The notes beneath the pieces were generated by a model. That model ran no database searches. It was not told the DNA's origin and saw nothing but the letters and a program-made list of their open reading frames with translations. The translations under genes and the position numbers were made by a program. Positions 2,646 through 15,413 of a stretch of 64,000 bases of DNA are shown piece after piece. The first letter of the stretch is position 1. Each line of letters starts with the position of its first letter. Source of the stretch: Achromobacter deleyi (GTDB lineage Bacteria > Pseudomonadota > Gammaproteobacteria > Burkholderiales > Burkholderiaceae_B); assembly GCF_016127315.1 (NCBI RefSeq), contig NZ_CP065997.1, positions 2,604,001 to 2,668,000 of the forward strand, in the 5' to 3' direction.

Positions 2646-3041
2646 TCAGCGAGCCCGGCGCAACGCCTCGCTTACGGCGCCGAGGTCGAGCTTTCGCGCC
2701 GCGGCGGAAAGTGTCCGCTGCGCCAGGCCGCGCCTGATCCAGTCGAGCACGGCATCTTGTTCGGCATCGCCCGCGATCGTTTCGGCCTCGTGACGTGGCA
2801 CCGCGATGACCAGGCCGAGCTGCTCGCGCGCCGCCTGGTACCGGCCCTTGGCCTCGAAGCCGTGCTGGCCGTGGTCCGTCACGCTGCCGCCGATCCACAG
2901 CGAGAGATCGAGCGTGGCGAGACCGGACACCGCGAGCGGCGCGAGCGCGGCCTTGAGCCGCGGCCGGCAGCCCACGATGGCGGCAAGGTACCGCACGCCG
3001 GTTTCCGGGCCGCCCATGACGCCGTGCAACGTGACTTCCAT
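2646..3041 (-). CDS. small protein of unknown function
   Basis: 131 residues if translation begins at the ATG at 3041, which has a strong ribosome-binding site (AAGGAGA, 5 nt upstream); the frame stays open 18 codons further but without a comparable site. I do not recognise the family. The protein lacks a signal peptide and membrane segments. It has a glycine-rich first half (HGVMGGPETGVRY) and a helical C-terminal third rich in Arg, Ala and Leu (LDWIRRGLAQRTLSAAARKLDLG). It is the last same-strand gene after the DapA-like gene, with a 119-bp gap, so it may be the distal cistron of the catabolic operon. Confidence 0.6.
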   Translation of the reverse strand: MEVTLHGVMGGPETGVRYLAAIVGCRPRLKAALAPLAVSGLATLDLSLWIGGSVTDHGQHGFEAKGRYQAAREQLGLVIAVPRHEAETIAGDAEQDAVLDWIRRGLAQRTLSAAARKLDLGAVSEALRRAR

Positions 3042-3160
3042 GTTTTCTCCTTCAGCGTGTCTGGCCAGACGATACTCGTATCTGCCCTGGCGCATGCGGG
3101 AGCACCCACTTCAGTGAACGCGGACGGGGGGCGCGCCGGGTGTCGACGCGGCCCCCAGGT

Positions 3161-4066
3161 TCAGTCCGCCTTGAGCTGCAGCTTCTCGAACAGGGCGTCG
3201 ATGCGGCGTTCCAGTTCCGGGGTCGCGGGCATCATGGGCAGGCGATGTTCGTTGCTTTCCAGCAGGCCCATCCGCTTCATCAGGTATTTCAGCGGGATGG
3301 GGTTGGTGTCCCAGAAGATCATCTTCATCAGCTCGAACAGCTTGAAGTGCAACGCGCGCGCCGCTTCGAGCCTGCCGTCGCGCACCAGGTTGCACAGCTG
3401 CGCCACTTCCGCCGGCGCCACGTTGGCGACCGCATTCATGGTGCCGCCCGCGCCCAGGCACATCATGGGAAAGGTGAATTCCTCCAGCCCCACGAAAATG
3501 CGGAACTCGGGGCCGAAGCGATACAACATCTCGGTCACGAACGAGTGGTCGTCCAGGGCATGCTTGATGCCCACGAAGTGGGGAACCGCCTCGGAAATCT
3601 GCTCCAGCGTGGCCAGGTCGGTCTTGAACGCGGTGCGGCCGGGGATGTGATACATCATCAGCGGCACGTCGACCCGCTTGCCCAGGTCGATGAAATAGGC
3701 TGCCACGCCGCGTTGCGGCGGCCGGATGTAGTAGGGCGTCACCACCAGCAGCGCGTCGACCTCGGCGCGGGCCGCGTGCTCGGTCAGCACGACGCTTTCG
3801 GCATGCGATTGCGAGCCGGTGGCGGCCACCACCTGCAGCCGTCCGCGGGCCGCCTCGACGGCGACGGTCACGGCCTGGTTGCGTTCTTCGAGGGTCAGCG
3901 TCGACGGCTCGGAGGTGGTGCCGTTGATCAGCACGCCATGCGTGCCGTTGCGCGCCTGGAAGTCGATCAGGCTGGCCAGCCTGTCGTAATCGACCTTGCC
4001 GTTCCTGAACGGCGTCACGATAGGCGGGATCGAGCCCCGCAGGGCGTCCTTCTGCAAAGTGATCAT
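3161..4066 (-). CDS. dihydrodipicolinate synthase family (DapA-like) lyase/aldolase
   Basis: 301 residues, full length for the DapA/N-acetylneuraminate lyase superfamily of class I TIM-barrel aldolases. The Schiff-base lysine is K168 (VGIKHA), the accessory tyrosine Y139 (MMYHIPGRT), and the pyruvate carboxylate loop is GTTSEPS (49-55). In true DapA this loop is GTTGE-like, so the S at this position and the catabolic neighbours argue against lysine biosynthesis. Related enzymes handle keto acids, for example pyruvate-forming aldolases or hydratase-aldolases. It sits 16 bp after the bicupin dioxygenase gene in the same operon and could act on the ring-cleavage or keto-acid product. Exact substrate unknown. 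Confidence 0.88.
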   Translation of the reverse strand: MITLQKDALRGSIPPIVTPFRNGKVDYDRLASLIDFQARNGTHGVLINGTTSEPSTLTLEERNQAVTVAVEAARGRLQVVAATGSQSHAESVVLTEHAARAEVDALLVVTPYYIRPPQRGVAAYFIDLGKRVDVPLMMYHIPGRTAFKTDLATLEQISEAVPHFVGIKHALDDHSFVTEMLYRFGPEFRIFVGLEEFTFPMMCLGAGGTMNAVANVAPAEVAQLCNLVRDGRLEAARALHFKLFELMKMIFWDTNPIPLKYLMKRMGLLESNEHRLPMMPATPELERRIDALFEKLQLKAD

Positions 4067-4082
4067 TGCGGTGCTCCGGCGT

Positions 4083-5201
4083 TCAGGCGGCCTTGCGGTT
4101 GGTGATGAAGCCTTCCTGCTTGCCCAGCACGGCGGCGGGGTGGTGCAGGTCTTCCTGCCAGAGCAGGGATTCCATGAAGATGTTCAGGGGCTGGTCCTGC
4201 ACGGTCAGCTCGTACACGTAGTCATCGTAGGAGGCGTGGTTGTGCACCGCCCAGCCCGGCGCCGACAGCATCAGGTCGCCGGCTTTCCACTCGTAGCGGT
4301 TGCCCGCCACGCTGCTGTAGCCGCTGCCGGAGAAGTAGTAGTTGATGGCGGCGGAGACGTGGCGGTGCGGGCGGTCGATGATCTTCGGCGGCCGGATCGT
4401 CATGGTCGCGAAGAAGTTCGGGGTGATCCCGTTGAAGCGGCCGGTGGCGGGGTTGTAATACATGTACAGGCGCCGTCCCACATATTCCTTGCCCAGCGCT
4501 TCCAGCTTGTCCAGCTGCGGCTTGACCTGGTCCCAGGCGAAATGCAGCGTGCGCGAATCCACCGCGGTCGGGTTGATCAGCGTCTCGTAGGGCATCAGCA
4601 GCCCGCCGTCGTCGTTGATGGGAAAGATGCCGAAGGGATTGCGGCGGCGCGGGTCGTCGGACTCCTCGCGCTGGCCCGTGCCGGCGCGCGCGTCCATGTC
4701 CGGCTGCGCATCCGTCACGTAGACGTCCATGAACTGCAGCAGCGGCACGTTCGAGTAGGTCAGGCGTACCTGCAGGTCCTCGCCGTCGTTGTAATGGCTG
4801 TACGGCGTATAGCTGGGGTGGTTCCACACGTCGTACTGCCTGAAGGCGACCTGCTTGCCGCCCACTTCGGTCACGCCCTGCCCGCGGATGCAGAAATTCA
4901 CCTCGGTGGCGTTGTGGCGAAAGGGCGCGGTGCGCTCGCCGGGCTTGAGCACCGACAGCCGGACCTGGATGCCCGGCGCCATGCCGGGGGCGAACTCGCG
5001 TGCGTTGGGGTGGGCGATCAGCGACTCGCGGCGGCCCGAGGCCGGCAGCGGCGAGGCGGCCAGGCGCTCGATTTCGGCGTCGATCTCTTCCTTGGTCACC
5101 ACGATGGGCGCCCATTGCGTGTTGTACGAAACGGGCGGTTCGCCGCCGCAATCAAGGAAGCGGCCATTGAGTCTTTCGAATTCGCGGGTGTATTCGTTCA
5201 T
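4083..5201 (-). CDS. bicupin dioxygenase-like protein (gentisate 1,2-dioxygenase superfamily)
   Basis: 372 residues with two cupin barrels, the layout and length of gentisate/1-hydroxy-2-naphthoate dioxygenases. The second barrel keeps a full metal motif (PHRHVSAAINYYFSGSG, then WAVHNH). The first barrel keeps only part of it (PFRHNATEVNFCIRGQG), so a single iron site in the C-terminal cupin is the simplest reading; in classical gentisate dioxygenases the active site is in the N-terminal cupin. It lies between an ornithine-cyclodeaminase-like gene (106-bp gap) and the DapA-like gene. Ring cleavage of a hydroxylated aromatic acid is possible but not proven. Confidence 0.82.
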   Translation of the reverse strand: MNEYTREFERLNGRFLDCGGEPPVSYNTQWAPIVVTKEEIDAEIERLAASPLPASGRRESLIAHPNAREFAPGMAPGIQVRLSVLKPGERTAPFRHNATEVNFCIRGQGVTEVGGKQVAFRQYDVWNHPSYTPYSHYNDGEDLQVRLTYSNVPLLQFMDVYVTDAQPDMDARAGTGQREESDDPRRRNPFGIFPINDDGGLLMPYETLINPTAVDSRTLHFAWDQVKPQLDKLEALGKEYVGRRLYMYYNPATGRFNGITPNFFATMTIRPPKIIDRPHRHVSAAINYYFSGSGYSSVAGNRYEWKAGDLMLSAPGWAVHNHASYDDYVYELTVQDQPLNIFMESLLWQEDLHHPAAVLGKQEGFITNRKAA

Positions 5202-5306
5202 GGTTCGATCTCCGGGGTCGGTGTGGATGTCGGGTCGGTATGTCGAGCGTCGTCGTGTTCGTGTTGGGGGGGCAGTAGGTATCGCGCGCCGTGCCTGTGC
5301 GCGTCC

Positions 5307-6308
5307 TCAGGCCTGCCGCGCGGCGAAGAACCGCGGCTTGCTCTTGACCGGCGCGGGCATGGCGCGGCCGATGCCCTGGTTGCGCGCGCGTTGCAGGATC
5401 TCGACGCCCAGCGCGAGGTCGGACAGGCCCATGCCCATGGCCTTGAACAGCGTCAGGTCGGCGTCGGCGGGGCGTCGCGCGCCGTCGTGGATGCGGGTCG
5501 ACAGGGTCTGCACCGTCTCCCAATCCTCGCCATAGCGGGTGCGGAACTCGCGTGACAGGCGCTGCACGCTGGACAGGTCGTCCACGGCGATCACGCCGGC
5601 CCGGTCGAACACGTCCTGGCAGAACTCTTCGCGGTCCGGCGCGATGGCGCCAATGGCGTTCAGGTGCGCGCCGCGCGCGAGCATGCCGGCGTCGACGAAG
5701 GGGGTGCGCGCGCGCGTCGCCAGCGTGACGACGTCCGCGCCGTCGCAGGCCGCCGCCATGCTGGCGCAGGCCTTGACGCGCAGCCCGCGGTCGGGGAAGG
5801 CTTCGGCGATGCGCAGGGCGAAGGCGTCGCGCGAGGCCTCGGTCGGGGTGTAGACGCGGATTTCCTCGATGTCGCGCACGGCCAGCACCGCGGCCACCTG
5901 CGACATGGCCTGCTTGCCGGCGCCCGCCATGGCCAGCACGCGGGCGTCGGGCCGGGCCAGCCAGTCCGTGGCCACGCCCGTCGTGCCGCCGGTGCGCATG
6001 TTGCCCAGCGCGAACGCCTCGATGATCGCGGCCAGTTGGCCATCCTCGGCATTCCACAGCAGCAGCAGCGGGCATGTGCCGCCATCGGTATGCGCCCAGC
6101 TTTTCGTGCCGACGTAGTGGCCCAGCCGCGCGCCCAGCGCGTGCAGGTTGCTCTGGCCGAACTGCAGCATGGTCTTGGGCATGCTGGCCGCCAGGCCCTG
6201 CGCCTGCATGCTCAGGCCCGTGCCGAGCGCGGGGATGGCCTCGTCCAGCGTCAGCAGCGCGGTGACCTGGGCTTCGGTGATCCACACGGGTTCTGCATTC
6301 GTCATCAT
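5307..6308 (-). CDS. ornithine cyclodeaminase/mu-crystallin family protein
   Basis: 333 residues, full length for this NAD(P)-dependent family (ornithine cyclodeaminase, alanine dehydrogenase, ketimine reductase). Visible features are the substrate-side lysine in VGTKSWAH and the Rossmann motif AGAGKQAMSQ. The ATG at 6308 is chosen because it overlaps the upstream stop codon as ATGA and has AAGGAA upstream; a second ATG follows directly. The frame continues open upstream but there it is the shadow of the neighbouring gene. Placement inside a dioxygenase/aldolase operon suggests imine or amino acid processing of an unknown compound rather than proline synthesis. Confidence 0.87.
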   Translation of the reverse strand: MMTNAEPVWITEAQVTALLTLDEAIPALGTGLSMQAQGLAASMPKTMLQFGQSNLHALGARLGHYVGTKSWAHTDGGTCPLLLLWNAEDGQLAAIIEAFALGNMRTGGTTGVATDWLARPDARVLAMAGAGKQAMSQVAAVLAVRDIEEIRVYTPTEASRDAFALRIAEAFPDRGLRVKACASMAAACDGADVVTLATRARTPFVDAGMLARGAHLNAIGAIAPDREEFCQDVFDRAGVIAVDDLSSVQRLSREFRTRYGEDWETVQTLSTRIHDGARRPADADLTLFKAMGMGLSDLALGVEILQRARNQGIGRAMPAPVKSKPRFFAARQA

Positions 6309-6925
6309 GGGTTTCCTTGCGTGGGTGGCGCGCTGTTGGCGGTGGGCGGGGCATCCGCGGCGGCATCGGCGCCGAAGCCGTCGTCCCAGATGGACGGCAC
6401 CGGCGGGCGCAGCCCGAACGTGTTGACCACCAGCGCGTGGGTGATGTAGCGGCCGGCCAGCATCGCGATGGCGACGGCCTGGCTGGCGGGCAGCAGCGCC
6501 GCCAGCCGCTCGAAATCGTCCTGCGCCTGCAGGCCGCGTGTGCGCACCGCCGCCATGACGTAGCGCTGCACGGCGCGCTCTTCCTCGGACAGCAACGCGG
6601 CTGAATCGGGTTGCAGGCGTTCGGCGTCCTTGACCCAGTCGCGGCCCAGGCCCAGCCGCACGCACAGGCGCTCGTGCTGGTGCCGTTCATAGGCGTTGTC
6701 CATCAGGGTGGCCGTGGTCAGCACCGCGACTTCGGCCAGGTTGTCGGGCAGGGCCTCTTTCAGCGACTCGGTAAAGCGCATGAAGTCCAGCAGCACGTCG
6801 GGCGCGTGGGCGCTGACCTGGAACAGCTCGCCCAGGTAGCCCAGGCGGCGCACCCGCGGCGTCAGGTACTCGGCGAGGTCGGGCCGCATGGCTTGCAGCT
6901 GCAGGCGTGGAATGGTCTGGCTCAT
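6305..6925 (-). CDS. carboxymuconolactone decarboxylase-like (AhpD-fold) protein
   Basis: 206 residues, all helical, with a CMD-type core (DFMRFTESLKEALPDNLAEVAVLTTATLMDNAYERHQHERLCVRLGL). The CxxC pair of peroxidase-type AhpD proteins is absent, so a thiol peroxidase role is unlikely. Family members include gamma-carboxymuconolactone decarboxylase and many catabolic proteins of unknown activity. It lies 5 bp after the Bug receptor gene, and its stop codon overlaps the next start (ATGA), so it is translationally coupled to the cyclodeaminase-like gene. The last 15 or so residues are Pro/Ala-rich and probably unstructured. Confidence 0.85.
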   Translation of the reverse strand: MSQTIPRLQLQAMRPDLAEYLTPRVRRLGYLGELFQVSAHAPDVLLDFMRFTESLKEALPDNLAEVAVLTTATLMDNAYERHQHERLCVRLGLGRDWVKDAERLQPDSAALLSEEERAVQRYVMAAVRTRGLQAQDDFERLAALLPASQAVAIAMLAGRYITHALVVNTFGLRPPVPSIWDDGFGADAAADAPPTANSAPPTQGNP

Positions 6926-6930
6926 GATCG

Positions 6931-7935
6931 TCAGTCGATGGTGATGTGATATTGGTCGGCCAGCTTCTTCCACTTCACGAGCTCGGCGGCGATCTGCTTC
7001 TGCAGCTCGGGGCCGTTCATCTGCAGGGGCACGAACAGGCGGTCGGACAGCGCCGTCTGCGTGGCCTTGTCCTGGGCCAGCGCCATGAATTCCTGGCTCA
7101 GCTTGTCGACGATGGGCCGCGGCGTGCTGGCGCTCACGAAAAAGCCGATCCACACGGCGAAGTCGTAGTCCTCGAACCCCGGCAGCTCGGCCAGCGCGGG
7201 CACGTCGGGATGGAAGGGGACGCGATGCTTGGTGGCCACGGCCAGCAGGCGGATCTTGCCCGTCTTCAACTGCGGGCTGATGTTCGAGATGGCGTTGAAG
7301 ATCACGGGCACCTGGCCGCCGATGCCATCCGTCAGCGCGGGCGCGCAGCCCTTGTAGGGCACGTGGACCATGTCGATGCCGGCCCGGTGGGCGAATTCGA
7401 CGCCGGCGAAATGCTGCGCCGTGCCGGTGCCGCAGGACGAGAAGCTGAGCGTGCCGGGATGGGCCTTGCCGTAGGCGATCAGTTCCTGCACCGAATTGAC
7501 CGGCAGCTTGGTGCTGACGGCCAGCGCGACGGGAGTCTCGGCAATCGCCATGATGGGGGTCAGGTCCTTCTGCAGATCGAAGTTCTGCGCCACGCCCAAC
7601 GCGGCGTTGACCGTCATGGTGTTGTTGCCGATCAGGATGGTCTCGCCATTGGGCACGGACCGGGCCACCGCGCCGCTGGCGATGTTGCCCGACGCGCCGG
7701 CGCGGTTCTCCACCAGGAAGCTCTGCTTGAAGATCTCGCCCAGGCGCGGCGACAGCATGCGGCCGATAACGTCGGTGCTGCCCCCCGGCGGGAAGGCCGA
7801 GATCATCGTCACCGGGTGCTCGGGATAGCCGGCATGGGCGGCGCTGGCCAGCATCAGGGTCAGGCCGAGCCGGGCGGCCCAGCGGATGGCGCGGCGATGC
7901 GGGGATTGCTGCAGGCGGATGTTTCGTTCCGTCAT
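6931..7935 (-). CDS. Bug-family (TctC) periplasmic solute-binding receptor
   Basis: 334 residues. The ATG at 7935 has a good ribosome-binding site (AAGGAGA, 6 nt away); the frame is open 21 codons further without one. A signal peptide (RRAIRWAARLGLTLMLASAAHA) precedes the mature protein beginning near GYPEHPVTMI. Family landmarks are AFPPGGSTD, VENRAGASGN, LSFSSCGTGT and HVPYKGCAP. It is the first gene of the catabolic operon running to 2646, so it probably captures the substrate of that pathway. Its promoter region carries the 35-bp element at 8009-8043, reading toward this gene. Confidence 0.92.
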   Translation of the reverse strand: MTERNIRLQQSPHRRAIRWAARLGLTLMLASAAHAGYPEHPVTMISAFPPGGSTDVIGRMLSPRLGEIFKQSFLVENRAGASGNIASGAVARSVPNGETILIGNNTMTVNAALGVAQNFDLQKDLTPIMAIAETPVALAVSTKLPVNSVQELIAYGKAHPGTLSFSSCGTGTAQHFAGVEFAHRAGIDMVHVPYKGCAPALTDGIGGQVPVIFNAISNISPQLKTGKIRLLAVATKHRVPFHPDVPALAELPGFEDYDFAVWIGFFVSASTPRPIVDKLSQEFMALAQDKATQTALSDRLFVPLQMNGPELQKQIAAELVKWKKLADQYHITID

Positions 7936-8008
7936 GGTTGTCTCCTTGTGGCTGTTGGGTTTTTGTTCCCAACTTTGCGTTGTGATTTTGGATATCATCG
8001 TAGGATCG

Positions 8009-8043
8009 CAATCAACCTATGTATAGATTGATTTACAATCAAT
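8009..8043 (-). promoter_or_regulatory. 35-bp shared promoter element, copy 1
   Basis: Read on the minus strand, this element matches 31 of 35 bases of the element at 14789-14823. It contains a 17-bp palindrome, ATTGATT-N3-AATCAAT (8027-8043), followed by a CTATACA segment and a further GTTGAT half-site. It lies between the divergent Bug operon (ATG 74 nt away) and the citrate-synthase-like gene. It is probably an operator for the left-hand catabolic genes. Confidence 0.65.
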
Positions 8044-8112
8044 CAACTAGCATGGTGATCTGGAAAACCGCTACAGCCGGACGCTTGGCGCCACCGGCCG
8101 GGAACACGCAGC

Positions 8113-9414
8113 ATGGAAAACCGACGCAAGAAAACGGCCGCCCCGGTGGCTGACGAGAACGCTCCCGCCGCGGGGACGTTGGTCGATGCGCGCACCGCCA
8201 TCGAGCGGCTGGGCATCAAGATGCAGACGCTGTATGCCTACGTCAGCCGTGGCTGGGTGCGCGTGGTGCCGGCGGTGGGCGGCAAGGGCAACCTGTACTA
8301 CGTGGAAGACCTGGATGCGCTGGCCGCGCGCGGCCGCGGCCGATCCATGACCGGCGCGGGGGCCGAGCGCATGATCCGCTGGGGCGGCAACGCGGTCATG
8401 CAGACCTCGATCACCGCCATCGGTCCCGAGGGGCCGCGCTACCGGGGCAAGCCCGCGGCCGAGCTGGTGCTGCACCATCGAACCTTCGAGGACTGCACCG
8501 AACTGCTGTGGAACGGCATGCTGCCCGACACCTCGGTGGCCTGGCAGCCCGCCAGGCCCGGGGTCGGGTTCCAGGCGCTGGCCGACGGCATCGTGCAGGT
8601 GGCCGCGCGCAATCAGGCGCGCCGGCTGCTGTCCGTGGCGGTCGAGGCCTATGCGGCCAGCCTGGGCCGCAATCCCGAACTGGCGCTGGGCGCGCCGGTG
8701 CTGGCCGCGCGCCAGTTGATTCAGGCCATGTCCGCGGCGACCGGCCTGCTGGCCGACCCGCCCACCTATGCGCTGAACGAGACGCCGCAATCCATCGCGC
8801 AGATACTGGCCGTCAATCTGCGCGTGGGCGATACGCCCGAGCATCTGCGCCTGCTGGACGCGGCGTTGATCCTGAGCGCCGACAACGAACTGGCGCCCGC
8901 CACGTTTGCGGCGCGCATCGCCGCGTCGGCGGCGGCCGACCTGTTCTCCTGCGTGACGACGGCGCTGGGCGCCTTCGAGGGCATGCTCACCGGGCTGGGC
9001 TGCGAACAGGCCGAGTCGGTGCTGGCGCAGGCGCGGTCGCGCGACGCCTATCTCGATCAACTGAAGAGCCTGCTGGCGCGCAAGAGCCCCGTGCCGGGGT
9101 TCGGCCATCCGCTCTATCCAGACGGCGACCCGCGCGCCACGCTGCTGCTGGACCTGGTGCGCGAGGTCGGACCCGCCAGCGCGCGTGGCGAGATGGCGCT
9201 GCAAGGGGTGGACCAGGCCAGCAACGAGCTAGGCCTGAAGCCCAACCTGCCGCTGGCCCTGGCGGTGTTGTCGGCGGTGCTGGGCGCGCCGCTGGGGGCC
9301 GCTGGCGCGCTGATGTCCGTGGGACGCGCGGCGGGGTGGGTGGCGCATGCGCTGGAGCAGCGCCTGGCCGGTTTCCTGGTGCGGCCGCGCGCGCGGTACA
9401 TCGGGCCCTCGTGA
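8113..9414 (+). CDS. helix-turn-helix protein fused to a degenerate citrate-synthase domain; candidate regulator
   Basis: 433 residues. Residues about 22-70 form a MerR/excisionase-type helix-turn-helix (DARTAIERLGIKMQTLYAYVSRGWV, then LYYVEDLDALAARG). Residues about 90-430 follow the citrate synthase fold to the C-terminal LVRPRARYIGP, which corresponds to the usual IRP-x-x-x-Y-x-G end. Key catalytic positions are changed: the oxaloacetate-site His in the H-x-E motif is N258 (SADNEL), the active-site His of the GPLHG loop is T293 (GMLTGLG), and the catalytic Asp of NVD is P380 (KPNLP). Only the His of PGFGH (H332) and the following DPRA are kept. Databases would probably call this citrate synthase; the residues and its place divergent to the Bug operon suggest a metabolite-sensing transcription factor. 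Confidence 0.85.
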   Translation: MENRRKKTAAPVADENAPAAGTLVDARTAIERLGIKMQTLYAYVSRGWVRVVPAVGGKGNLYYVEDLDALAARGRGRSMTGAGAERMIRWGGNAVMQTSITAIGPEGPRYRGKPAAELVLHHRTFEDCTELLWNGMLPDTSVAWQPARPGVGFQALADGIVQVAARNQARRLLSVAVEAYAASLGRNPELALGAPVLAARQLIQAMSAATGLLADPPTYALNETPQSIAQILAVNLRVGDTPEHLRLLDAALILSADNELAPATFAARIAASAAADLFSCVTTALGAFEGMLTGLGCEQAESVLAQARSRDAYLDQLKSLLARKSPVPGFGHPLYPDGDPRATLLLDLVREVGPASARGEMALQGVDQASNELGLKPNLPLALAVLSAVLGAPLGAAGALMSVGRAAGWVAHALEQRLAGFLVRPRARYIGPS

Positions 9415-9452
9415 GGCCATCGCGGGCCTGAGGTCCGCGCCACCAGGCCTCA
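9412..9452. terminator. hairpin shared by two convergent genes
   Basis: Nested inverted repeats: outer TGAGGCC/GGCCTCA, in which both flanking TGA stop codons take part, and inner CGCGGGCC-TGA-GGTCCGCG with one mismatch. No U-tract. Probable bidirectional terminator. Confidence 0.5.
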
Positions 9453-11237
9453 GTGGCCGCGCCCCAGCGCCTTGGCCATGGTCTTGGCGTATTCGCGCGC
9501 CACGCGCGCATCGATCACCGCGACCTTGCCCGCCTTCACGGCGGCAATCGCCTCGTCCAGCGCCTGGGCCAATTGGTCCGCGGTCTGCACCGGTCCCCAG
9601 CCCAGCGCTCCCTGCGCGCGAGCCAGCCCCGCCAGGTCGATCTCCGGGCCTTCGATGCGCTGGCCGATCCATTTATTCTCGACCGGGCGCGAGCGTATTT
9701 GCGCCACCTTCTCCTGGTGGACCTCGTCGTTGAAGAACGAGCGGTTGTTGGCCACGATCACCAGAAGGGGGATGCCATAGCTGACGGCGGTCCACAGCGC
9801 CGTGGCGCCCATCAGATAATCGCCGTCGCCCAGCACCGCCACCGGCAGCCGCGGCGTGCCGCGAAGGCCCAGGGCCGCGCCCACCGCCATGCCCGGACCC
9901 GAGCCGATGCCGCCGCCGCCGTCATAACCCAGATAGTCGAGCGGATGCGCCAGCGGATGCGCGTCGCCGGGCCAGCCCAGATTGGCGCGGATCAGGCAGG
10001 CGGGCGCATGGCGGCGCAAGTGCTGGCTGACCGTGCCCGAGAATACGGCCAGCGACATGCCTTCGGCGGCGTCGCCCGATTCGTGTGGCGCCATGTCGGG
10101 CTCGGGCGGCAAGTCGGCCGCCGCCATGCGCGCATCGCCCAGGTCGCGCAGCGCCGCCAGCGTCTGCGCCACGAACTCGTCGGGATCGCACATCAGATAG
10201 GTGTCCGCGCCCACCAGCCCCTGATGCTCGCCGCCGAAGCCGTTGTGCAGCACCTGGTCCAGCGACACCTGCATCACGTGGGCCGGCGTGCGCGTCGGGC
10301 CCCAGGCCGTGCGCAGCGTGCCGGCCAGATCCACCCAGTCCAGGCTCAGGACCACGTCGGCCTCGCGCAGCGCCTGCAGGCCTTCGTCGGCCATGAAGAA
10401 CGACGGCGTCGTGCCGTGCAGCGGATGGCGCGTCGGAAACGCCGCGCCCACCTTGAAGTCGGTCAGCACCGTGGCGGCGCAATGTTCGGCCAGCGCCACG
10501 CGGCGGTCCCAGTCGGCTTCGTCGCGCGAGACGCGTCCGATCAGGATGACGGGCCGCCTGGCCGCGTGCAGCCGTTGCGCCGCCTCGCGCGCCAGGCGGT
10601 CGGCGATGCCCGGGCGCGGCGGCGGCGCATGCCGCGCCAGCGGCAGCAGCGGCGGCGCGTCCGCGCAGGGCGCTTCCTGCAGCGCGCTGTCGAAACACAC
10701 GTAGACCGGGCCTTGCGGCTGCGTCGTGGCAATCTGCCGCGCGCGCAGCACCGCATCGCGCGCGCCTTCCAGCGAGTACGGCTCGGCGTCCCATTTGACG
10801 AACGAGCGCACGAGCGCGCCCTGGTCCTTCGAGGTGTGCAGCCAGTCGATCCACGGACGGCGGCGCGCCGAATCGACCGGCCCGGTGGCGCCGAACACCA
10901 TGACGGGCACGCGATCGCAATAGGCGTCGAAGATCGCCATAGAGCCGTGCATCAGGCCCACGTTGGCGTGCAGGATGGCCCCCATGGGGCGTCCCGTCAC
11001 CTTGGCATAGCCATGCGCGATCGCGACCGCGTGTTCCTCATGCAGCACGGTCAGCATCTTGGGCGATTCGTCGCCCAGGTAGTTGACCAGGCTGTCGTGC
11101 AGGCCGCGATAGCTGGCGCCCGGATTGAGCGCCACGTACTCCAGGCCGAGATGCCGCAGCAGCGCGGCCAGGTAGTCGCTGCCCCATTCGGGCGGGGGCG
11201 TGTCTTGGTGGGACGGGGCGTGCGTGGGAGTAGACAT
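9450..11237 (-). CDS. thiamine-diphosphate-dependent enzyme (acetolactate synthase/benzoylformate decarboxylase type)
   Basis: 595 residues with the three-domain ThDP architecture: an N-terminal pyrimidine-binding domain with the catalytic glutamate in LHEEHAVAIAHGYAKVTG, a central domain, and a C-terminal pyrophosphate domain with GDGDYLMGATALWTAV followed by VANNRSFFND for Mg and diphosphate. The start is the ATG at 11237, after an 8-nt gap from the aldehyde dehydrogenase stop; the frame is open far upstream only as a shadow of that gene. Pairing with an aldehyde dehydrogenase suggests decarboxylation of a 2-keto acid to an aldehyde that is then oxidised. The fold is certain; the substrate is not. 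Confidence 0.87.
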   Translation of the reverse strand: MSTPTHAPSHQDTPPPEWGSDYLAALLRHLGLEYVALNPGASYRGLHDSLVNYLGDESPKMLTVLHEEHAVAIAHGYAKVTGRPMGAILHANVGLMHGSMAIFDAYCDRVPVMVFGATGPVDSARRRPWIDWLHTSKDQGALVRSFVKWDAEPYSLEGARDAVLRARQIATTQPQGPVYVCFDSALQEAPCADAPPLLPLARHAPPPRPGIADRLAREAAQRLHAARRPVILIGRVSRDEADWDRRVALAEHCAATVLTDFKVGAAFPTRHPLHGTTPSFFMADEGLQALREADVVLSLDWVDLAGTLRTAWGPTRTPAHVMQVSLDQVLHNGFGGEHQGLVGADTYLMCDPDEFVAQTLAALRDLGDARMAAADLPPEPDMAPHESGDAAEGMSLAVFSGTVSQHLRRHAPACLIRANLGWPGDAHPLAHPLDYLGYDGGGGIGSGPGMAVGAALGLRGTPRLPVAVLGDGDYLMGATALWTAVSYGIPLLVIVANNRSFFNDEVHQEKVAQIRSRPVENKWIGQRIEGPEIDLAGLARAQGALGWGPVQTADQLAQALDEAIAAVKAGKVAVIDARVAREYAKTMAKALGRGH

Positions 11238-11245
11238 CGAATGAA

Positions 11246-12739
11246 TCAATCCAGGGTGACGTTGACGTTCTTGGTCTGCGTGAATTCCAGCAGCTCTTCC
11301 TTGCATTCCTCGCGGCCGACGCCCGACTGCTTGTAGCCGCCGAACGGCGCGCCGATGAAGTGCGCCGACGAGCCGTTGATCCACACATAGCCGGCCTGCA
11401 CGCGCGCCGCGGCGCGATGCGCGGTGCGCAGGTCGGTGGTCCAGATCGAGGCCGTCAGGCCGTATTCCACGCCGTTGACCGCGGCGTACAGGTCTTCCTC
11501 GTTCGACCACTTGAGCACCGACAGCACCGGGCCGAAGATCTCCTCGCGCGCCACGCGCATTGACGGCGTCACGTTGGCCAGGATGGTCGGCTCGACGAAG
11601 TAGCCCGCGGCCAGCGCGGGGTCGCCGCTGCGCTTGCCGCCATGCGCCACCCGCGCGCCTTCGGCCACCGCCGATTCCACATAGGACAGCGTCTTGTCCA
11701 TCTGCTGGCTCGAAACCAGCGCGCCCATCGTCGTGCGCATGTCGGTGGGCAGGCCGGGCGTGTGCAGCTGCGCGGTCAGCTCGACGATGCGCGCCAGCAC
11801 GTCGTCGTGGATGGACTCGTGCAGGAACAACCGGCTGGTCGACCCGCACGATTGGCCGCACCAGGTGAAGTTCATGCCGCGCACCGCGCCCAGTGGCATC
11901 TTGTCCAGGTCCGCGTCGGGATAGACGATCATGGCATTCTTGCCGCCCAGTTCCAGCAGCACCTTCTTCAGGTCGTCCGCGGCCGTGCGCATCACCGCCT
12001 TGCCGGCGTTGACGCTGCCGATCAGCGCCACCGCCGCCACGTCCGGATGCGCCGACAACGCGGCGCCCGTCTCGCGGTCGCCGCCCAGGCAGTTCAGCAC
12101 CCCGGGCGGGAACAGGTCGGCAATCAGTTCGAACAGGCGCAGGGTGGACAGGGGCGCCTGCTCCGGCGGCTTCACGATCACCGTGTTGCCGGCGGCCAGC
12201 GGGGCCGCGATCTTGCCGGCGGCGAACATGAAGGGATGGTTGAACGGGATGATGCGCGCCACCACGCCCAGCGGTTCGCGCAGCGTGTAGTCCAGCGAGC
12301 CGTTCATCGTGGGGATGGTCTCGCCCTTCAACTCCATCACCAGGCCGGCGAAGTACTCCAGCTGCGCGGCGGCGAACACCGCGTCGTCCTGCATCTGCCT
12401 GACCGGGTTGCCGCAATCGACGGCATCGATCAGGGCCAGTTCCAGGCCATGTTCGCGGATGATCGCCGCCGCCTGGCGCAGCAGCGCGGCGCGGGTCAGC
12501 GGCGGCGTGTCGCGCCACGCGGGGAATGCCTGCCTGGCCGCGGCCACGGCCGCATCGACGTCGTCGGCATCGGCCACCGCATAGCGTCCCAGGTCGGCCT
12601 GCGTGCCGGGGCTGTGGCTGCGTTGATAGTTGCCGCCGCGGGGCGGGTGCCAGGCGCCGCCGTAATACAGGTCGCGCCGGGTCGGCAGGGCGTGGGGCAC
12701 CTGCGCGGACAGGTCGGGCCCCTGGTCGGGAGTGATCAT
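11246..12739 (-). CDS. NAD(P)-dependent aldehyde dehydrogenase
   Basis: 497 residues, full length for the ALDH superfamily. The catalytic cysteine is C298 (GQSCGSTSR), the general base E263 (LLELGGKNA), the oxyanion asparagine N167 (IIPFNHPF), and the cofactor region lies around GSVNAGK (241-247). The C-terminal GAPFGGYKQSGVGREE motif is intact. It is the first gene of a two-gene operon with the ThDP enzyme, which follows after 8 nt. A perfect 15-bp palindrome lies 110 bp upstream of the start, linking it to the other operons carrying that core. Likely role: oxidising the aldehyde made by the ThDP enzyme. Confidence 0.93.
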   Translation of the reverse strand: MITPDQGPDLSAQVPHALPTRRDLYYGGAWHPPRGGNYQRSHSPGTQADLGRYAVADADDVDAAVAAARQAFPAWRDTPPLTRAALLRQAAAIIREHGLELALIDAVDCGNPVRQMQDDAVFAAAQLEYFAGLVMELKGETIPTMNGSLDYTLREPLGVVARIIPFNHPFMFAAGKIAAPLAAGNTVIVKPPEQAPLSTLRLFELIADLFPPGVLNCLGGDRETGAALSAHPDVAAVALIGSVNAGKAVMRTAADDLKKVLLELGGKNAMIVYPDADLDKMPLGAVRGMNFTWCGQSCGSTSRLFLHESIHDDVLARIVELTAQLHTPGLPTDMRTTMGALVSSQQMDKTLSYVESAVAEGARVAHGGKRSGDPALAAGYFVEPTILANVTPSMRVAREEIFGPVLSVLKWSNEEDLYAAVNGVEYGLTASIWTTDLRTAHRAAARVQAGYVWINGSSAHFIGAPFGGYKQSGVGREECKEELLEFTQTKNVNVTLD

Positions 12740-12848
12740 CGATGTGCTCGCTGACAGGCCGGCCCGCGCGGGGATGTGCTGATTACGCGCAGGCGGCGGG
12801 GTGATGAAGAACGCCTAGGCTATTGCCGTGGATACATATCGGTCAATC

Positions 12849-13640: not shown

Positions 13641-13695
13641 GGGGAAGCTCCTGGTTGGGTGAGCTTCGATCTTAGGAACCCGGGGCGTGGGCAGG

Positions 13696-13732
13696 TTGCC
13701 TGATTATTTTGAATTCTTGCCCGATTGTTTTG
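13696..13732. promoter_or_regulatory. AraC-type direct-repeat operator candidate
   Basis: Two 16-bp direct repeats, TTGCCTGATTATTTTG (13696-13711) and TTGCCCGATTGTTTTG (13717-13732), differ at two positions and are spaced exactly 21 bp, two helical turns. This is the standard arrangement of AraC-family half-sites. They lie between the divergent SDR and AraC genes and argue that the AraC gene starts downstream of them. Confidence 0.6.
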
Positions 13733-13785
13733 TTCGCGCCGGTTCAGGCTTGAATGGTGCTATGTTGGCGGCAGGCGGAATCCCC

Positions 13786-14766
13786 ATGCAATTGCCCGAA
13801 GAAATGAAAGAGGTTGCCCGATCCTGTGATGAAAGCCCCGCGGGGGCCGGCCTGTCCAGGCCCGGCGAACTGACCGGGGCCCTGCTGCGGGCGGCACGGC
13901 AATATGCCGACGCACGCCTTGACGGCGAGGGCGTGGCCGCCACCCCCATCGATGGCATGTTCATCCTGCGCGAGACCGCGCCGTCGCCCCTGCAGTACGC
14001 CATCACCCGGCCCCTGGTCGCGCTGGTGCTGCAAGGCGGCAAGCGCGTCGGCATGGGCGAGCGCAGCTTTACGTTTGGCGCTGGCGAGTCGCTACTGATC
14101 GCGATGGACGTGCCGACGGTGAGCCAGGTCATCACGGCGAGCGCGGCCGCGCCCTACTACTCGCTGGTCGTGGAACTGGATGCCGCGGTGATCACCGAGT
14201 TGGTCGGTGAAATGGGCGAGCTGCCGCTGCAACCCGACCACCCGGTACGGGTGGGCCGGACGGAAGCGGAGGTCGCCGACGCGGCCTTGCGCCTGCTCAG
14301 GCTGCTCGACAGGCCGCGATCGCTGGCGGTGCTGGGCCGCCAGCTGGTGCGGGAACTGCATTACTGGTTGCTTGCCGGGCGGCATGGCGGCGCCATTCGC
14401 GTGCTCGGAGTGGCCGACGGCCATGGCCGCAGGATTGCCCGCGCCATCGAGATGCTCAGGGCCGGATATGCCCGGCCCCTGCGCATCGAAACGCTGGCCG
14501 AGGCGGCGGGCATGAGTCTGTCCGTGTTTCATACGCACTTTCGCAACATCACGACGCTGACGCCGCTGCAATTCCAGAAGCAGCTTCGGCTGCTCGAGGC
14601 GCGGCGGCGCATGCTCGCCGAAGGCGTTGCCATCGGCGCCGCCGCCCATGGCGTCGGCTATGAAAGCGTGACGCAGTTCACCCGTGAATATGCGCGGATG
14701 TTTGGCCAGCCTCCGGCCCGCAACATCCGGGAAATGCGCGCGCTGGCGCATTCGGCGACGTCTTGA
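13786..14766 (+). CDS. AraC-family transcriptional regulator
   Basis: 326 residues from the ATG at 13786, which has AGGCGGA upstream; starts at 13762 or 13687 are possible, but the latter would put the operator repeats inside the gene. The N-terminal part (about 30-200) matches the AraC-type regulator N-terminal domain (MFILRETAPSPLQYAITRP, LVLQGGKR, YYSLVVELD). The C-terminal 100 residues hold the double helix-turn-helix (LRIETLAEAAGMSLSVFHTHFRNITTLTPLQFQKQLRLLEARR, then GVGYESVTQFTREYARMFG). Proteins of this type commonly activate a divergent oxidoreductase gene; the divergent SDR is the obvious target. Effector unknown. Confidence 0.88.
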   Translation: MQLPEEMKEVARSCDESPAGAGLSRPGELTGALLRAARQYADARLDGEGVAATPIDGMFILRETAPSPLQYAITRPLVALVLQGGKRVGMGERSFTFGAGESLLIAMDVPTVSQVITASAAAPYYSLVVELDAAVITELVGEMGELPLQPDHPVRVGRTEAEVADAALRLLRLLDRPRSLAVLGRQLVRELHYWLLAGRHGGAIRVLGVADGHGRRIARAIEMLRAGYARPLRIETLAEAAGMSLSVFHTHFRNITTLTPLQFQKQLRLLEARRRMLAEGVAIGAAAHGVGYESVTQFTREYARMFGQPPARNIREMRALAHSATS

Positions 14767-14788: not shown

Positions 14789-14823
14789 ATTGATTGTAAA
14801 TCAACCTATACACACGTTGATCG
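14789..14823 (+). promoter_or_regulatory. 35-bp shared promoter element, copy 2
   Basis: This plus-strand element matches the minus-strand element at 8009-8043 in 31 of 35 bases: core ATTGATT-N3-AATCAA (14789-14804), then CTATACA and a GTTGAT half-site. It ends 68 bp before the cupin ATG, much as copy 1 ends 73 bp before the Bug ATG. The equal orientation and distance imply one regulator. Confidence 0.65.
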
Positions 14824-14891
14824 GGCTTCTAGGATAGCGGCGACGCTACAAGCCGAAGCGGCACACGCGCCGCACAATCAGGAGACGAGCC

Positions 14892-15413
14892 ATGCCCGCA
14901 GAAACTTCAGGATCCGCATTCGCGCCCATCGTCCACAGCGCGCAGCAGTGGCGCGACGCGATGTCGGAAATGTCGAAACGCAAGACGCCGAGTTTCTTCC
15001 ATATCCGCGCCCGCTTGCCGCGGCAGGGGCGCACCAATCAGGTGCTGGGCGCGTCGCCCTACATGAACGTCGTGCTCAAGACCTATGCCGGCGGCGGCGA
15101 GAACGAGATCCATGCCCACACCAACGAGGACCACGTCTTCGTCGTGCTGCAGGGCGGCGCCACTTTCCTGGGGCCGCGTGGGGAAACGCGGCGGGTCGGG
15201 CGCAACGACTGCGTGCTGGTGCCGGCAGGCGCGTTCTATTCGTTCCAGGCCGACGAGGCCGAACCGCTGGTGATGCTGCGGGTGGGCGCCGCCATCGACC
15301 GGGCGGGGGACGTGCTGGCGCGCGTCGACGAGCGGGGGCAACCTTTCGATGGCTACTCCGAACGCAACAGGGAAGTCCCCGCCATCCTGCACGATGCGCT
15401 GATTTACGAGTGA
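14892..15413 (+). CDS. single-domain cupin protein
   Basis: 173 residues; the ATG has AGGAGAC 7 nt upstream. One cupin barrel occupies about 55-150, with a canonical metal motif (EIHAHTNEDHVFVVLQGGATF) and a second His replaced by the FYSFQADE segment. An N-terminal helical stretch rich in Lys/Arg precedes it. Small cupins of this sort are found in aromatic and sugar-acid catabolic operons as dioxygenases, isomerases or ligand-binding proteins. The upstream 35-bp element links its expression to the Bug/bicupin operon, so it may process an intermediate of that pathway. It is not a helix-turn-helix cupin regulator. Confidence 0.8.
   Translation: MPAETSGSAFAPIVHSAQQWRDAMSEMSKRKTPSFFHIRARLPRQGRTNQVLGASPYMNVVLKTYAGGGENEIHAHTNEDHVFVVLQGGATFLGPRGETRRVGRNDCVLVPAGAFYSFQADEAEPLVMLRVGAAIDRAGDVLARVDERGQPFDGYSERNREVPAILHDALIYE

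Follow-up and report, generated by a model that had tools for sequence, protein, structure and literature searches.

Enzyme folds are known to act as sensors in one-component regulators. In the MocR/GabR proteins, a GntR-type winged helix-turn-helix (wHTH) is joined to an aminotransferase fold that works as the sensor, and the genes often lie divergent from their targets. MerR regulators carry a long dimerisation helix after the wHTH, and their target promoters have a spacer of 19-20 bp. For a citrate synthase, the sections used here of a study on Caulobacter CitA describe a regulatory role that is independent of catalysis and acts on CtrA and the cell cycle; they also report that the paralogues citB and citC have consecutive locus tags and that CitC fails to rescue an E. 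coli gltA mutant (PMC7083601).

The protein studied here, which we call an HTH-citrate-synthase (HTH-CS) protein, is encoded by an open reading frame of 433 residues at 8113..9414 (+ strand) of the window, the whole stretch of 64,000 nucleotides from Achromobacter deleyi that was analysed. Like MocR/GabR, it joins an HTH to an enzyme fold as a putative sensor, but the HTH family and the enzyme fold are different ones, and the parallel is one of working principle, not of kinship. Its N-terminal wHTH is similar to that of MerR and HTH_17 (excisionase-type) proteins. It differs from citrate synthase and 2-methylcitrate synthase (PF00285; GltA, PrpC) by the wHTH, by replaced catalytic His and Asp residues, and by the position of its gene, which is divergent as in regulators and accompanied by predicted operators. 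Unlike HTH-CS, Caulobacter CitA has no DNA-binding domain described in the sections of the study cited here (PMC7083601). The sequence-only reading of this DNA had known of no regulatory role described for such proteins, and our searches of open-access papers likewise listed no account of HTH-citrate-synthase regulators; they very likely constitute an undescribed family of one-component regulators.

Domain architecture and active-site residues

The C-terminal fold of the query protein is that of citrate synthase: the PF00285 profile matches residues 92-426 with E=3.2e-50, placing the protein in this superfamily, and the domain takes up residues 92-433 (8386..9411, + strand). The wHTH (8182..8337, + strand; residues about 24-75) was located from HTH_17 matches, a structure model and column counts. 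Against the first 80 residues of the query, HTH_17 scored 17.8 bits (E=0.0041), which is under the Pfam cut-off of 27; among 79 aligned members, namely the query and 78 sequences selected by hand from 120 listed homologues, it matched 68 at E<=0.01, and MerR_1 matched 42. In the AlphaFold2 model, the N-terminal part consists of two helices (26-33, 37-45), two strands (51-53, 60-63) and a further helix (64-74); the block-mean pLDDT is 87-93 across residues 21-70. Helix 64-74 is followed by a low-confidence linker (residues 76-94) and then by the citrate-synthase domain, so that the model has no long helix of the MerR type after the HTH. In the Pfam search the query gave no match to GntR or aminotransferase profiles, and it does not belong to MocR/GabR; all 20 NCBIfam models listed for it scored under their cut-offs. 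The gene-caller score for 8113-9414 carries no evidence, since the training set included this very gene. The proposal of an HTH placed on a citrate-synthase fold is thus upheld by the profile matches and the model. The TLYAYVSRG helix, which would be the recognition helix, is almost invariant in both the query-side and the intact sets that we compared, which fits a half-site common to both. We define the HTH-CS family by a wHTH with the TLYAYVSRG helix, a citrate-synthase fold and an operator of the TTGAT/ATCAA type at the own gene; the query, with TTGATTTACAATCAA as its predicted operator, has all of these.

The query was aligned with two enzymes of its own genome that we labelled GltA-type (L001) and PrpC-type (L002), both of which have H/H/H/D at the four catalytic positions; a second HTH-citrate-synthase of the genome also has H/H/H/D at positions 258/293/332/380. 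All residue coordinates that follow are on the + strand. In the query, N258 (8884..8886) replaces the first catalytic His, T293 (8989..8991) replaces the His of GPLHG/GPAHG (by motif H264 of E. coli GltA), and P380 (9250..9252) replaces the catalytic Asp (by motif D362 of E. coli GltA), while the third His is retained as H332 (9106..9108). The query therefore lacks three of the four residues expected of a (methyl)citrate synthase, in agreement with what had been noticed from the letters alone. Three arginines, R341 (9133..9135), R405 (9325-9327) and R424 (9382-9384), are retained, and 147 of the 150 query-side rows have all three; presumably they act at substrate carboxylates, as in citrate synthases. 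M401 (9313..9315) stands where the GltA-type and PrpC-type enzymes have Phe, and by motif we take it to correspond to F383 of E. coli GltA. This column holds M in 87, W in 29 and F in 25 of the query-side rows, besides other residues, and F in 119 of 120 rows of the intact set. A study of E. coli GltA names H264 as the active residue and D362 as catalytic, and reports that F383 contacts the acetyl group and that the F383M change cuts kcat by 93% (PMC11167817).

The three replacements differ in weight. A phmmer alignment with citrate synthase 2p2w places His opposite T293 and Asp opposite P380, but Gln opposite N258. Because of this Gln, and because most query-side rows keep His at position 258 (113 H and 37 N of 150), N258 is by itself a weak sign; it is confined to part of the family, which corrects the earlier reading on this point. 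T293 and P380 are the stronger signs of lost catalysis. Over the same 150 rows, position 293 has T in 89 cases and either L or I in 32, and position 380 is A in 46, E in 35, P in 26, V in 9 and D in 9, with S, G, N, T, F and C also found.

The query search returned at least 2490 homologues at E<=0.001 and a search with the second HTH-citrate-synthase at least 6483, of which 120 each were listed; HTH carriage was counted within these 240 listed homologues. Where the listed relatives bear names, they are mostly called citrate synthase, as had been anticipated. The query-side set of 150 rows comprises the query, 119 listed homologues and 30 locus proteins, with a few doubles (among them L011 and L012, which repeat listed homologues). 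A catalytic triad conserved across homologues would have spoken against a dead enzyme fold, and such conservation is confined to a separate group: HHHD occurs in 119 of 120 rows of the other search, the remaining row being incomplete, and in only 4 of the 150 query-side rows, all four outside the degenerate clade in our tree. In this tree, a quick one without bootstrap, built from 81 rows chosen by hand from the aligned set with the four catalytic columns masked, all 64 degenerate rows fall in one clade (SH-aLRT 100), and the 15 intact HTH forms lie outside it; the tool warned of long branches coming together between the outgroup and the main clade of intact forms. Loss of the catalytic residues within one well-supported clade, with the three arginines kept, supports the suggestion of a fold that would no longer catalyse.

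Both forms coexist in the source genome, where the second, intact HHHD protein lies at G000:C1:4847380-4848588 (L003; L068:7381-8589) with TTGATTAAAATAATCAA upstream; a scan of the genome's contigs gave 3 loci. As a separate observation, one locus elsewhere (L059:7993-10459) has two tandem HTH-citrate-synthase matches adjoining a TctC gene.

Predicted operators in the cluster and across the family

The gene divergent from the HTH-CS gene, in the window as in four orthologous stretches, encodes a tctC-type periplasmic receptor (6931..7935, - strand; PF03401, 3.5e-54). Its reading frame opens at 7998, and we consider 7935 the likelier start because it lies inside the transcript from the predicted promoter. 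The rest of the divergent row (3161..6925, - strand) encodes a 205-aa protein, an OCD/mu-crystallin-type reductase, a gentisate-dioxygenase-like cupin and a DHDPS-family protein; this order is kept in L006, L007 and L048, and L049 is without the DHDPS gene. The gene of the 205-aa protein (6308-6925) has no Pfam match at E<=0.001 and is kept in all four stretches; a further gene of the same strand row (2649-3095) also has no Pfam match at this threshold. On the other side of HTH-CS, genes for a TPP-dependent enzyme and an aldehyde dehydrogenase (ALDH) occupy 9450..12739 (- strand); both are found in L006, L007 and L048 and both are absent from L049. A small cupin protein is encoded at 14892..15413 (+ strand; Cupin_2, 6.5e-10). 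In the outer part of the window lies a second TctC-type gene (650-1603), whose Pfam match spans profile positions 14-221 of 274, near a short FCD/GntR regulator gene (1770-2315), whose HTH match is without the first 30 positions of the profile; truncation or a misassigned start may affect one of these genes or both. The 7-Mb genome contains 110 TctC-family matches.

The palindrome that had been pointed out in the shared promoter region is present at 8010..8043. Here the interval separating the HTH-CS gene from the divergent tctC gene has a composite predicted operator, AATCAA...TTGATT-TAC-AATCAA, which is conserved in five genomes. In the window this intergenic sequence is AATCAACCTATGTATAGATTGATTTACAATCAAT; in the four other genomes the AATCAA and GTATAGATTGATTTACAATCAAT parts are identical and the bases between them differ, and the operator parts are unchanged even beside an orthologue of only 64% identity. 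Of 268 family genomes, five have an exact copy of the 18-bp core GATTGATTTACAATCAAT (G000, G006, G089, G104 and G106), and these are the five with an orthologue of at least 64% identity, the next-best matches being at most 43% in a survey that scored part of the candidates per genome, so that absences are not certain. With up to 2 mismatches the core is found in 31 of the 268 genomes; apart from the five, there is one place with 1 mismatch, in G145, and all others differ by 2, and we take these sites for chance.

Two more predicted operators lie in the cluster. A 16-bp version of the operator has 6 matches in the 64-kb window, that is, 3 places read on both strands, against 0.04 expected. The second operator, ATTGATTTCAAATCAA at 12848/12849-12864 (- strand), is upstream of the ALDH-TPP genes and is followed by a -35-like TTGACC (12846-12841); it also accompanies these genes in L006, L007 and L048, and the L049 stretch has neither. 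The third, at 14789..14822, is upstream of the cupin gene and has 1 mismatch to the 18-mer core; its core at 14789-14806 is the only other place in the 7-Mb genome with at most 1 mismatch. At the predicted tctC promoter (7997..8025, - strand), a -35 TATACA (8025-8020) and a -10 TACGAT (8002-7997) are separated by a 17-bp spacer, and the predicted cupin promoter has a -35-like TATACA (14807-14812) and a -10-like TAGGAT (14830-14835). At tctC in five genomes and at the cupin gene, the predicted promoters have palindrome, TATAC(A/G), 17 bp and TA(C/A/G)GAT in one common spacing; four ALDH promoters have TTGACC equally far from the palindrome, with no constant -10. The spacing from operator to -35 is thereby identical in ten predicted promoters. 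The 17-bp spacer of the predicted tctC and cupin promoters would differ from the lengthened spacer of the MerR type, and the predicted ALDH promoters are without a constant -10. A generic promoter scan applied to 7900-8150 gave one terminator-like site and no promoter.

Related motifs occur at more distant relatives. A first set of 48 HTH-CS loci forms 19 clusters at 60% identity. Taking one upstream region from each cluster, we tested every palindromic tetramer dyad without a preset pattern (4352 tests); TCAA-N2-TTGA came out on top, being present in 10 of the 19 clusters and in 3 of 173 control upstream regions (p=1.6e-9). With selected patterns, several of which were chosen after the sites had been inspected, an operator was found in 11 of 19 clusters, against 6 of 173 controls, and none in the other 8. 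The strict motif TCAA-N2-TTGAT-N5..7-ATCAA is present in 7 of the 48 loci (2 of 19 clusters) and in none of the 173 controls. In the class- and phylum-wide draws it stands near the likely start codon in 13 of 13 loci (5 clusters), against a maximum of 0 in 200 shuffles; 12 of these loci and 4 of the clusters are new. L104 had already appeared in the first set as L079, and L111 was left out of the count as a duplicate of L100. Twelve of these 13 loci have HHHD, and L104 has HIHE. Matches were found in at least 4 of 229 genomes of the class draw and at least 15 of 249 of the phylum draw, and an intact paralogue in at least 2 of 101 family and at least 4 of 300 order genomes, the own genome being included throughout; all these draws scored part of the candidates per genome, and absences are not certain. 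As so few genomes hold an intact paralogue, the operator test on the intact forms rests on five loci, the second HTH-citrate-synthase of our genome and four others found through it, all of which have TTGATT-N5-AATCAA upstream.

Gene neighbourhoods of relatives

Of 43 loci, 22 (in 7 of 19 clusters) have a TctC-type gene no more than 500 bp away, against 35 of 286 control genes; in 9 of the 43 loci the HTH-CS gene was not called and was placed by tblastn. By cluster this enrichment is only moderate, and adjacency to TctC is weak as proof because the source genome alone has 110 such matches. For the intact forms, the neighbours are as follows. At two loci (L105 and L106) the divergent partner of an intact HTH-CS gene is prpB, and the gene after prpB is about 81% identical to our PrpC-type enzyme; at L109 HTH-CS is divergent from an acnD-like gene that is cut by the end of the locus and for this reason scores below the cut-off; the HTH-CS proteins of these three loci are candidates for a so far unrecognised regulator of propionate utilisation. 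In nine loci (L108, L110 and L112-L118) an intact HTH-CS gene is divergent from another citrate-synthase gene, the gap being 42-93 bp in eight of them. All nine partner genes encode HHHE, with Glu for the catalytic Asp, and the four that were scanned are of the PRK12350 type. These divergent pairs are reminiscent of Caulobacter citB/citC. In our own genome the intact form is divergent from a CoA-transferase III gene, and at L111 HTH-CS is divergent from a CoA-transferase-like gene, by a weak match. The placement of intact forms beside (methyl)citrate-pathway genes suggests that, in part of the family, the ancestral sensor would read a metabolite of this pathway.

A regulatory model and its alternatives

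We are confident, short of certain, that the protein encoded at 8113-9414 acts as a one-component transcription factor, in which a wHTH is combined with a citrate-synthase fold that has lost catalysis and would sense a small carboxylate. The fold, the residue losses, the predicted operators, and the conservation of these operators and their co-occurrence with the orthologue are borne out by the sequence; from these we infer physical DNA binding, a dimeric state, the class of ligand, the sign of regulation and the lack of activity. The regulator proposed by the sequence-only reading has gained in support from an operator that is conserved and co-occurs with its orthologue, from the two further sites in the cluster and from the related motif at distant relatives. 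In the mechanism that we propose, the N-terminal wHTH would bind TTGAT/ATCAA half-sites, and the C-terminal domain would form a citrate-synthase-fold dimer in which catalysis is lost and the arginines for a di- or tricarboxylate are kept. In known citrate synthases, one arginine of the substrate site is supplied by the partner subunit. The ligand may be a small carboxylate, probably imported or made by the products of neighbouring genes; its binding could shift the dimer between open and closed states and so change how the two HTHs are seated on the operator. Probable targets are tctC, the own gene, the ALDH-TPP genes and the cupin gene. The predicted operator either overlaps the predicted -35 of its targets or sits immediately upstream of it, and in intact forms it is near the start of the own gene, which fits activation together with self-limitation. 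The likeliest sign would be activation of the divergent operon, with HTH-CS keeping its own expression in check; repression with release by the ligand is nearly as likely.

Three other explanations were weighed. The operator could belong to the AraC-family regulator (13687-14766) or the FCD/GntR regulator, with HTH-CS merely adjacent: genes for both lie in the window, and the third operator adjoins the AraC gene. However, the four orthologous stretches (17-18 kb), which still contain HTH-CS together with the operator, yielded no relative of either protein by tblastn (best E 0.12 for AraC and 0.49 for GntR); this points to HTH-CS as the operator binder. Since related motifs also occur upstream of HTH-CS genes in differing neighbourhoods across the phylum, we regard ownership by another regulator as decidedly improbable. 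That the protein is a bifunctional trigger enzyme, which condenses an unusual substrate in a Claisen-type reaction in addition to regulation, is unlikely as well, even if H332 and the three arginines are retained, HHHD is kept throughout the complete rows of the sister group, and 2p2w shows that a citrate synthase can have Gln at the first His position. Against such an enzyme stand Pro in place of the catalytic Asp, Thr in place of the second His and Met in place of the GltA Phe; moreover, the many residues accepted at position 380, where Asp is found in 9 of 150 rows, are expected if there is no selection for catalysis. The protein might also be an ordinary citrate synthase whose N-terminal extension is decorative, as the usual naming of the listed relatives would suggest; we reject this as highly implausible in view of the residues lost, the HHHD GltA-type and PrpC-type paralogues in the genome, and the operators.

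Extending the transcription-factor model to the whole family, it seems probable that HTH-CS proteins are spread across a phylum, presumably Pseudomonadota, in which intact forms control (methyl)citrate genes and a single loss of catalysis was followed by radiation into pseudoenzyme regulators. The intact members may sense a metabolite of the neighbouring enzyme and act from TTGAT...ATCAA operators; each pseudoenzyme regulator would serve a catabolic operon close by, in many cases a TctC-linked one, and would grip its ligand through the arginines. If this is true, citrate synthase would join the enzyme folds that have been turned into bacterial transcription factors, in both intact and degenerate forms, and a part of the proteins filed as citrate synthase would be regulators. 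As the operators predict the targets, the role and the ligand of many uncharacterised carboxylate operons would become testable.
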